The notes under the pieces: model-generated | What the model was told of the DNA's origin: nothing | Seen by the model: only the letters and a program-made list of their open reading frames with translations | Database searches by the model: none | Source: Deltaproteobacteria bacterium | Lineage (GTDB): Bacteria; Desulfobacterota; Dissulfuribacteria; Dissulfuribacterales; QOAL01 | Assembly (NCBI GenBank): GCA_027003115.1 | Contig: JALWYS010000173.1 | Location: 1-40,831, forward strand | Length of the DNA stretch: 40,831 nt | Direction of reading: 5' to 3' | Position numbers and translations under genes: made by a program | In this document: one piece after another, positions 70 to 2,504 of the stretch | How the letters are laid out: each line of letters opens with the position of its first letter | Position numbering within the stretch: position 1 is the first letter of the stretch

Positions 70-915
70 TTAGGCCCTTTTCGCTTTGCAAAGGATTCTA
101 ACCTTTTGACCCTCAAAAAGTCCAAGCTCCTTCTTTGCATCTGCCATATTTACTGCAATCTCAAGGAATCCAAAACTGTTAATAAAGGCAACGGGCATTC
201 CTGGCTCAACCATGGAGAATGTTTTCTTTAGGGGAATGGAGAGCCTCTTTCCTTCCCTGGAGCAAAGCTCAACCACCATATCTTTCCTTGAACAGGACAG
301 AAGTGAAAGATGGCTGGATTTGATATTGGTGGCACCATTTCCAAAGTGATCGAAATAGAGGATGGCACCTTCTGCCCTTTTTCGGGATATGTCTGGCTCT
401 GGAATATTGAGTGTAAGGGGCCTTCTTGTCAGCATTGAACAGAACCTTTCTGGCGCAATTCCAAGGGACAGAAGGGCTGCTGCTGGAGAAAAAATGTCTC
501 TGCCGTGAAAGGTTGAGCTCGTCCCTGTTTTTATGCCCCTTTCAGCAAGAAGTTCATTGAGTAGACCTTTTTCTATCACGTACGTGCAAGCTTTTGAGCT
601 GTCTGTTGCCAGTGAAAACAAGCCGTTATCCGGGCCCACGAAGGTCCTTGAGCCGTCTTTAATGACAAGACAGGCACGCTCGCTTCCTACTCCCGGGTCC
701 ACAACGGACAAAAATATGGTCTTTTGGGGAAAGTAGGGCACACTTGCCTCAAGATAGATGGCGGCCTGAAGGACGTTTTGCGGGGAGATAAGGTGAGTGA
801 TATCCGTTACAACGGCCTCCGGATTAATAGAGGCGACAACACCCTTACATATACCTACATAGGGGTCTTTAATGCCGAAATCTGAGAGAAAGGCGATTAT
901 TGGGCGGCTTTTCAC
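70..915 (-). CDS. S-adenosyl-L-methionine hydrolase (adenosine-forming), DUF62 family
   Basis: 281 aa, a full-length member of the family related to fluorinase/chlorinase that uses hydroxide to split SAM into adenosine and methionine. The N-terminus has the FLSDFG motif with the Asp that binds the SAM ribose. The middle has VVDPGVGSER and FHGRDIFSP, which carry the Asp, Arg and His that activate water in characterised archaeal homologues. The start is a GTG directly after the TAA of the spermidine synthase gene, so translation is probably coupled and the operon reads speD-like, speE, SAM hydrolase. A cytoplasmic role in SAM removal or methionine/adenosine recycling beside a SAM-consuming pathway is inferred. 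Family assignment is firm; the physiological role is not. Confidence 0.93.
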   Translation of the reverse strand: MKSRPIIAFLSDFGIKDPYVGICKGVVASINPEAVVTDITHLISPQNVLQAAIYLEASVPYFPQKTIFLSVVDPGVGSERACLVIKDGSRTFVGPDNGLFSLATDSSKACTYVIEKGLLNELLAERGIKTGTSSTFHGRDIFSPAAALLSLGIAPERFCSMLTRRPLTLNIPEPDISRKRAEGAILYFDHFGNGATNIKSSHLSLLSCSRKDMVVELCSREGKRLSIPLKKTFSMVEPGMPVAFINSFGFLEIAVNMADAKKELGLFEGQKVRILCKAKRA

Positions 916-1794
916 TTACCAGTACGAGGGTGTTTCAATGGGAATTGTGCCGTCATCCACATACTCTTCAATCAATTTTTTCCACCAGCCTGGAAGGCAG
1001 AAAGACGCTTTGTGGATGGAGGGGTTGTAATAGCGGCCTTCATATTCCCTTTGGGGCACACTGATTGATCCCTCCTTGTTTCTTGATCCTGCAACAAAGG
1101 CTATCTCTCCTCCGTAGGTGGGCATTGGGGCGAGATAAACCTCCACCTTTTCGAACACGTCCTGGAATCTTTTCCTTATAAAGGGCATAACAGCCGGCAT
1201 GGTCACGGGAAGTCCGGACTGGCGTACCACTACACCGGTATCAGTCAGGCATGCGGAAAGGTCCTCGTGAAAGGGCCTTTGGAAAAGGACAATGGCCGGC
1301 CCTATGGGGTCTGTGGAGTCAAGGATGATGACATCGAATTTTTTGCCCCTCTCCCTGGCCTCTTTTACATATTTGGCCCCGTCGCCAATTATGAGTTCAA
1401 CCCTTGGGTCCTTCCAATCTCCGCATATTTCAGGAATGTACTTTCTGCAGGCAACGATTACCGCCTCGTCAAGTTCAACCTGCACAACCCTCTTTACGGA
1501 TTCGTACTTCAGAACCTCCCTCAGAACACCTCCATCGCCTCCCCCGATTATAAGGACAGACTCTGTTGGCTCCTTCCTGCCAAGGATGGGAACATGCGTC
1601 ATCATCTCGTGGTAGATGAATTCATCTCCCACTGTAGTCTGGACAATGCCATCAAGGACGAGCCCTTTACCCCATTGGGGATTGTCAAAAATCAGCAGAC
1701 GTTGAAAGGGAGTGCGCTGCTCAAAGAGGGGCTCAATCTCATAACCGTGGGTAAAACCTGGTCCGATTCTCTCAGACCACCAGTAGCGAGTCAA
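916..1794 (-). CDS. speE: spermidine synthase (polyamine aminopropyltransferase)
   Basis: 292 aa. It transfers an aminopropyl group from decarboxylated SAM to putrescine or a related amine. The substrate-side motif DEFIYHEMMTHVP is near residues 58-70, the glycine-rich IIGGGDGGVLREV nucleotide loop is near 84-96, and the catalytic LDSTDP acid motif is near 158-163, so the enzyme looks intact. The C-terminal YYNPSIHKASFCLP segment is also typical. The start is TTG, overlapping the TGA of the preceding gene as TTGA, with GGAGG a few bases upstream; no nearby ATG fits. It is the middle gene of a three-gene SAM/polyamine operon. The upstream SpeD-like protein appears catalytically dead, so the source of decarboxylated SAM is an open question. 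Confidence 0.95.
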   Translation of the reverse strand: MTRYWWSERIGPGFTHGYEIEPLFEQRTPFQRLLIFDNPQWGKGLVLDGIVQTTVGDEFIYHEMMTHVPILGRKEPTESVLIIGGGDGGVLREVLKYESVKRVVQVELDEAVIVACRKYIPEICGDWKDPRVELIIGDGAKYVKEARERGKKFDVIILDSTDPIGPAIVLFQRPFHEDLSACLTDTGVVVRQSGLPVTMPAVMPFIRKRFQDVFEKVEVYLAPMPTYGGEIAFVAGSRNKEGSISVPQREYEGRYYNPSIHKASFCLPGWWKKLIEEYVDDGTIPIETPSYW

Positions 1795-2243
1795 GTGTCC
1801 TCCATTTCAAGCAGTTGACCCCTGGTCAGCTCTATCACTGCAACCTGACCAGGATTAAGGGTGGACTTGAGGCTCTCCAGTATCTTGTGGGCCTGGACCT
1901 GATCCCTGGCAAAAATGTCAAGGGCGGCATATTCCTTTTCAGGCCAGGTATGAATGAGAACGTGGATTGCTGAATTTGAAACAGTGGCTGATACGCCGTA
2001 CGGGTCAAACTGGTAGGTATTTACCTTTATATCATGGGAGCCATCAAAATCGTTGCAGCTAGAGGCCGCCTTTTCCAGAATCGAGCCGATTACGTCCGCA
2101 CTTGCCAGGGATGAAAAGGGGGCCTGCCACATTTCCACAAGCAGGTGGGTATTTAGGCCGCATGCAAAGGAGCTGTTAAGCATGTCTGCCTTCTGCTTGG
2201 TCTGACCAACGTCTTTTTGAAGTACAGGGGTTGCTGTAGCCAT
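1791..2243 (-). CDS. S-adenosylmethionine decarboxylase-like protein lacking catalytic residues
   Basis: 150 aa, about 20-30 residues longer at the N-terminus than usual bacterial class 1B AdoMet decarboxylases. The fold signature is clear: QFDPYGVS (78-85), then IHTWPE (97-102) and an LDIF strand (108-111). Active enzymes have a Ser-Glu-Ser-His stretch before IHTWPE, where the second Ser becomes the pyruvoyl group. Ungapped alignment against the Bacillus/Thermotoga pattern puts Ile93 at that Ser, Ala92 at the preceding Glu, and Arg113 at the Cys proton donor. His98 and His94 are kept. The ATG start has AAGGAGG six bases upstream. It is the first gene of the operon and overlaps speE by 4 bp. 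It may be a regulatory partner, as the trypanosome AdoMetDC prozyme is; the fold is firm and loss of activity is inferred. Confidence 0.85.
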   Translation of the reverse strand: MATATPVLQKDVGQTKQKADMLNSSFACGLNTHLLVEMWQAPFSSLASADVIGSILEKAASSCNDFDGSHDIKVNTYQFDPYGVSATVSNSAIHVLIHTWPEKEYAALDIFARDQVQAHKILESLKSTLNPGQVAVIELTRGQLLEMEDT

Positions 2244-2504
2244 AGGCAGCCTCCTTTTGGTACGCTCTTCTGCATGCAGTCTGCAGCCGGCAGATGTTAA
2301 ATGGCTAAAAAATCAAGTTTACACTGTCGCTTCTGTTACCGCTAGAAAAATAGAAGCTTTTTCCGAAACGGCGAAAAATCTAACCACTTTCAATCTTTTT
2401 TGTCAATATTATGGTGAAAAAACATGGCCTTTAGAAGGCGTGTTCCTTTAATTTTTCTAACTTCCTCTTGCTCAAAATCCAAGGCAGGCATAAGTTGTCT
2501 TGTC
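2244..2504. promoter_or_regulatory. divergent intergenic region between speD-like and phosphodiesterase genes
   Basis: This divergent gap must hold the promoter of the minus-strand SAM operon and probably that of the plus-strand phosphodiesterase. A strong ribosome site for the speD-like gene (AAGGAGG on the minus strand) lies at about 2250-2256. A perfect 10-bp palindrome, CTGCATGCAG, lies at 2270-2279. I could not identify a convincing -35/-10 pair by eye. An in-frame ATG at 2424 would extend the phosphodiesterase but has no ribosome site. Confidence 0.4.

Follow-up and report, generated by a model that had tools for sequence, protein, structure and literature searches.

The window, a stretch of 40,831 nucleotides from a Deltaproteobacteria bacterium of the order Dissulfuribacterales, carries a speD-like gene whose product has lost the residues needed to form and use a pyruvoyl cofactor; with a probability of roughly 0.55, this protein would be the subunit that binds AdoMet in an AdoMet decarboxylase (AdoMetDC) built from two genes and working for SpeE, the pyruvoyl group coming from another SpeD of the genome (type A). 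The dead protein (type B) is predicted to bind AdoMet through its counterparts of Phe49, Ser55, His68, Trp70, and Glu72 (Thermotoga maritima SpeD numbering, used hereafter unless window residues are named) and to act on the active site of its partner; type A, encoded on contig C199, would bring the pyruvoyl and Cys83, and the pair would make decarboxylated AdoMet for SpeE. At about even odds, type A would be a homodimer for arginine and a heterodimer with dead B for AdoMet, giving from two unlinked genes a split site like that of the class 2 enzymes and without their fusion; one pyruvoyl subunit would then serve two enzymes, the dead subunit redirecting it from arginine to AdoMet.

Regarding its sequence and fold, the window protein scored 79.7 bits with Pfam AdoMet_dc and 77.9 bits with TIGR03330, passing the cut-off of the latter (75.65) by 2 bits, so that a pipeline would annotate it as an active AdoMet decarboxylase. 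Its AlphaFold model had a pLDDT of 81, with low confidence for the N-terminal 27 residues, and the best PDB matches by Foldseek were SpeD structures (E 2e-11 to 4e-10), followed by human, potato, and trypanosome AdoMetDC; the protein has, then, both the SpeD fold and the family profile. A profile alignment with T. maritima SpeD (PDB 1vr7, 1tmi, and 1tlu) contained no gap from FDPYGVS to IHTWPE, which places Ile93 at the Ser63 site, Ala92 at Glu62, and His98 at His68; Arg113 aligned to Cys83, and Phe49, Ser55, Trp70, and Glu72 corresponded to Phe79, Ser85, Trp100, and Glu102. The pyruvoyl-forming Ser preceded by Glu is replaced by Ala92-Ile93 and the catalytic Cys by Arg113, and the window protein is without two of the three residues (Ser63, His68, and Cys83) that make up the SpeDA/SpeDC set. 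These substitutions and the retained His had been read in an initial annotation made from the letters alone, and the numbering given there was right.

The losses extend to a whole group of proteins. In a maximum-likelihood tree, the dead SpeD sequences formed one clade of 39 members (support 100/100), placed on the canonical AdoMet decarboxylase side and spanning most sampled families of the window's order together with the Thermodesulfobacteria. Among 60 sampled relatives, homologues with 40-96% identity to the window SpeD occurred in 27 other genomes of its order or family; a scan of named genomes added members from Thermodesulfatator and Thermosulfurimonas MAGs (L048-L056), and families f39, f72, and f97 contributed others in the phylum sample. 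Cys83 is retained in 0/39, and Ser63 in three members (one from f97 and two from f39, all without Cys83), the remaining 36 having A/I/V/L/M/T at this site; Phe49, Pro51, Ser55, His68, Trp70, Pro71, and Glu72, which include the substrate-binding Phe and Glu, are each present in 39/39. Aligning homologues, a check proposed in the initial annotation, thus finds the loss at the Ile93 and Arg113 sites across the clade, and supports its reading of the window protein as a pseudoenzyme, one that by its residues cannot self-process by the known route. As a side observation, the members with Ser63 (L210/L222 of G314, and L215 and L216 of G082 and G118) have Ser or Glu in place of Cys83, as if the loss of the Cys had preceded that of the Ser.

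What the clade has kept matches one half of a known active site. In the human class 2 AdoMetDC, the first half of the chain contributes Ser68 and Cys82, and the second Phe223, Ser229, His243, and Glu247. Class 2 enzymes are two fused class 1B units (PMC5201418, PMC10407285), and by homology this split between the halves implies that, in a face-to-face class 1B dimer, Ser63 and Cys83 of one chain meet Phe49, Ser55, His68, and Glu72 of the other. The dead clade, with Glu62, Ser63, and Cys83 lost and Phe49, Ser55, His68, Trp70, and Glu72 kept, looks like a C-terminal half, and this points to an active site shared between subunits and not to allostery alone. The processing of human Ser68 is aided by Ser229 and His243, and Ser55 of T. 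maritima is the counterpart of Ser229; it should be kept in mind, as a point against the heteromer, that the T. maritima S55A mutant still self-processes (PMC3975893).

As for the putative partner, the genome of the window has one other SpeD, type A, on contig C199 (L142:4206-4640:-; L001), with Glu-Ser-His and the Cys intact and followed by a gene for an arginase-family (agmatinase-type) ureohydrolase; the search for a second speD suggested in the initial annotation was therefore successful. Type A accompanies the dead type in nearly every genome, the exceptions being G010 (88% complete) and G018 (55% complete). It has Ser63 and Cys83 in 36 of 36 sequences, retains Ser55 and His68 alongside them, and carries Tyr and Phe at positions F49 and W70. 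The tree places it with a Vampirovibrionales protein, the second SpeD of its genome and a homologue of Vampirovibrio SpeD2, which is a proven arginine decarboxylase (PMC10407285); in genomes lacking SpeE, its relatives cluster with speB and with speY, of the deoxyhypusine synthase family, the published neighborhood of speDA genes (PMC10407285). Among the 60 relatives, no genome had an OKR decarboxylase (OKR_DC) above the cut-off, the only genome of the order with PvlArgDC had no dead SpeD, and PF02784 was mostly a single copy of LysA size, which makes type A the likely source of agmatine. On the basis of homology and gene context, a homodimer of type A is probably an arginine decarboxylase of SpeD descent; besides it, nothing that looked suitable as another pyruvoyl source for AdoMet decarboxylation was found in these genomes. 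Two features of type A count against the heteromer: its gene and that of the dead type are not neighbors, and in genomes with dead B it has a complete residue set of its own, with which it might decarboxylate AdoMet alone. In several families, the type A speD is immediately preceded, and in some cases overlapped, by a gene for an XRE-like regulator, named by sequence only (L143:8175-8717, L147:8888-9427, L236:3373-3900, L246:3770-4312, and L249:3966-4505), which possibly encodes a polyamine-responsive repressor.

The distribution of these genes links the second SpeD to SpeE. In a phyletic table of 297 genomes of the phylum, 65 of them with type A, SpeE was found in 42 of the 43 genomes that have type A and a second SpeD, live or dead (22/23 in the subset with dead B, dead by sequence or by family), and in at most 2/22 of those with type A and no second SpeD; the table was compiled by hand and the Fisher test applied to it ignores relatedness, so that the contrasts within families are the safer evidence. 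Families f17 and f60 hold both states, and inside each of them SpeE tracks the second SpeD. In f47, f77, and f70 the second SpeD is live, and its gene lies next to SpeE in the same position. From this pattern, the dead gene occupies the place taken elsewhere by a live AdoMet decarboxylase. The presence of a second SpeD and the co-occurrence of dead and live forms, both with SpeE, lend indirect support to the earlier proposal that the dead protein is a partner of another SpeD.

Exceptions go in both directions and are counted against the heteromer: G320 has type A and SpeE with no B, and in G028, with type A and dead B, no SpeE was found. In G012 and G015, two genomes of the window's own family, neither type A nor dead B was found, and a canonical, Pseudomonadota-like SpeD is clustered with SpeE and a PF02784 decarboxylase (L153:7612-10586 and L154:7851-10535); this cluster was probably acquired by horizontal transfer, and A and dead B appear to have been displaced together. 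In the SpeD scans of the phylum, Thermodesulfobacterium (f39, G152) had type A and dead B only. T. thermophilum, a congener of the f39 genomes, contains norspermine and two active aminopropyltransferases (PMC11107197), so that decarboxylated AdoMet must be made in that genus. Other SpeD homologues were met along the way: L229, L230, L231, and L232, from f17 and f60, have Gln62 (AQSH) and Thr55, with type A alongside and in genomes with SpeE; L175, on contig C134 of G027/G067, is a third homologue near a PF02784 gene and seems to bear the Gln/Thr/Phe/Tyr residues typical of SpeDC ornithine decarboxylases; and L247:3471-3920 of G071, a genome without SpeE, is very divergent (LVESGIQLHTLSE), with a branch length of 2.9.

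In family f48, the decay affects the type A protein (A'). The three sequences keep Glu62, Ser63, His64, and Cys83 (3/3) and have lost Ser55 and Glu72 (3/3) and mostly His68 (2/3); His68 is missing from A' in precisely the two genomes in which B has lost Cys83. The operon has the order PLP decarboxylase, SpeE, A' (L241 of G158, L251 of G186, and L252 of G126), and the presence of the PLP decarboxylase makes an arginine activity of A' dispensable, yet A' is kept. Canonical and type A proteins share 20 conserved columns; six of these are lost in dead B and seven in A', with no overlap (one-sided p = 0.04). Dead B and A' come from different lineages and are not partners; they would represent two one-sided decays, each in the direction that the heteromer model predicts. 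The reciprocal loss in f48 may be one event, which is counted against the heteromer.

The best of the other explanations, improbable on balance though to be taken seriously, is that type A decarboxylates AdoMet (and perhaps arginine) by itself, the dead protein being an allosteric or assembly activator that contributes no active-site residues. The retention of Ser55, His68, Ser63, and Cys83 in type A is in its favor, as are the precedent of the trypanosomatid prozyme (PMC5201418) and the SpeE of G320, which has type A only. Against it, type A has Tyr and Phe where the dead protein keeps the canonical Phe49 and Trp70 in 39/39, it is almost never found alongside SpeE when a second SpeD is missing, and the A subunit of f48 is itself devoid of Ser55 and, in most cases, of His68. 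The prozyme analogy drawn in the initial annotation stands in part: there is a dead paralogue beside a competent one, and the half-site residues that it retains speak against allostery alone.

The operon in which the dead gene resides bears on a different proposal. The features of the window are collected in Table 1; AAAGGAGG lies upstream of the ATG, and direct reading confirmed that the frame is intact and has a ribosome-binding site, as first annotated. Its coupling to an intact speE is likewise real: the SpeE motifs GGGDGG and DSTDP are intact, the stop of speD and the start of speE overlap in TTGA, and the final codons of speD contain the ribosome site of speE, in a 3′ end (GGAGGA(C/T)ACTTGA) present in most members of the clade.

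Table 1. Features of the dead speD operon in the window
Feature	Position	Strand	Remarks
speD-like gene, putative pseudoenzyme (type B, dead)	1791..2243	-	150 aa, ATG start
Ribosome-binding site of dead speD, GGAGG	2250..2254	-	direct reading
Codon of Ile93, aligned with T. maritima SpeD Ser63 (pyruvoyl-forming)	1965..1967	-	ungapped profile alignment to 1vr7/1tmi
Codon of Arg113, site of the catalytic Cys83	1905..1907	-	profile alignment; Cys in 0/39 of the clade
Codons of Phe79, Ser85, His98, Trp100, and Glu102, retained AdoMet-binding/processing set	1938..2009	-	each in 39/39
speE (aminopropyltransferase)	916..1794	-	TTG start; NF002010 and TIGR00417 above cut-off
Ribosome-binding site of speE, GGAGG	1799..1803	-	within the Met-Glu-Asp codons of the MEDT tail, which is conserved
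SAM hydroxide adenosyltransferase / (R)-SAM hydrolase family gene	70..915	-	profile matches

The conserved C-terminal (M)EDT at first resembled a peptide motif, but is for the most part accounted for by the TTGA overlap and by the ribosome site that it encloses; its survival in lineages without this speE copy (speE-b) leaves some weight with the motif reading. The gene at 70..915 is the third of the operon in the window's family and in some others; genes of this kind lie behind the dead speD operon in the window and at L045, L047, and L148, and follow the dead speD directly where speE-b is lost. A second aminopropyltransferase gene is present elsewhere in the window's genome (G000:C182:27405-27941; L155:7265-8113), and its product has 36% identity to the window SpeE.

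This translational coupling, together with the retained ligand-binding residues, would fit a protein that binds AdoMet, decarboxylated AdoMet, or methylthioadenosine and acts on SpeE as a subunit, channel, or sensor, with type A as the sole AdoMetDC. We consider this unlikely, because the coupling is not universal across the clade: the dead gene is retained without an adjacent speE at L045, L047, and L144, and is kept in G028, where no SpeE was found. A dedicated subunit of SpeE was discarded on the first of these grounds, and the idea of a SAM or decarboxylated-SAM sensor for the operon, also raised in the initial annotation, is disfavored by both. Moreover, in f47, f77, and f70 a live B holds the same position beside SpeE, and this position therefore marks the role of an AdoMetDC.

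It is less probable still that the dead protein is an AdoMet decarboxylase in its own right, through a shifted processing Ser or another cofactor. The substrate-binding set is there, and Ser89 and Ser91, the alternative processing residues named in the initial annotation, are close by in the window protein; at the sequence level these positions are not conserved, the clade shows no conserved Ser or Thr at the place of processing, Cys83 is missing in 39/39, and the alignment to solved structures is ungapped, so that a shifted Ser was rejected. Finally, the dead speD is under strong purifying selection: within the genus, dN/dS is about 0.07-0.12, with dN of 0.02-0.18 and dS mostly >1 and in many cases near saturation, and the closest pair, the window and G003, gave dN/dS values of 0.018/0.277. 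These values, and the sharing of the loss by independent genomes, rule out a sequencing error, a pseudogene, or chance. A functionless, decaying copy, kept by its position in the operon and by the GGAGGA and TTGA overlap inside its coding end, is hardly credible given this selection, the residues invariant across two lineages, and its persistence where speE is lost.

With respect to earlier work, fused SpeD proteins with a degraded second domain are known in Lentisphaerota and Desulfobacteria, and the prozyme is stated to be exclusive to trypanosomatids (PMC10407285, PMC5201418). In the literature searched, which included few subscription journals, neither a stand-alone bacterial pseudo-SpeD, shared by two lineages and paired with a SpeD of the arginine decarboxylase type, nor a paper on a bacterial heterodimeric SpeD was found. 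A search for class 2 AdoMetDC genes gave no match in 21 genomes, a negative of little weight given that the control genomes gave none either. If the heteromer is real, the AdoMetDC of two Thermodesulfobacteriota lineages is a two-gene enzyme, annotation pipelines give the name of AdoMet decarboxylase to an enzyme unable to work alone, and two decarboxylases share one pyruvoyl cofactor; bacteria would have a stand-alone equivalent of the prozyme and a living model of the half-site specialization preceding class 2 AdoMetDC, a step for which fused genes have been the only argument until now. As some hosts are in culture (Thermodesulfobacterium geofontis), this reading can be tested directly.

Compared with the known systems, the window protein shares with the class 1B SpeD of T. 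maritima and B. subtilis the fold (1vr7 and 1tmi), the AdoMet_dc family, the position before speE, and Phe49, Ser55, His68, Trp70, and Glu72, and differs by the absence of Glu62, Ser63, and Cys83. It resembles the trypanosomatid prozyme in that it is a dead paralogue and its genome encodes one relative that is competent, and its model matches a chain of the AdoMetDC/prozyme heterodimer 5tvm by Foldseek; however, it is bacterial, half the size (150 aa), and class 1B, the only profile matched. The partner of the prozyme is a class 2 AdoMetDC whose own active site is complete (PMC5201418); the window protein, by contrast, keeps the residues of the trans-acting site, its putative partner is a SpeD of the arginine decarboxylase type, and the activation is predicted by analogy. 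In the SpeD-SpeDC fusions of Victivallis vadensis and Desulfobacter latus, a processing-dead SpeD domain works beside a competent one, and the V. vadensis fusion, with its dead second domain, is an active AdoMetDC (PMC10407285); there, one chain joins a live AdoMetDC domain to a dead one derived from ornithine decarboxylase, whereas here two unlinked genes are found, which the tree assigns to the AdoMetDC side (dead) and the arginine decarboxylase side (live). SpeDA, from Vampirovibrio and others (PMC10407285), is where type A groups, sharing with it speB and, in some genomes, speY; the window protein, without the pyruvoyl Ser, is not SpeDA. Lastly, the eukaryotic class 2 AdoMetDC has the same division into a Ser/Cys half and a Phe/Ser/His/Glu half, the dead SpeD having the pattern of the C-terminal one, with the difference that the eukaryotic enzyme is a single fused chain and its putative bacterial likeness is encoded by two genes.
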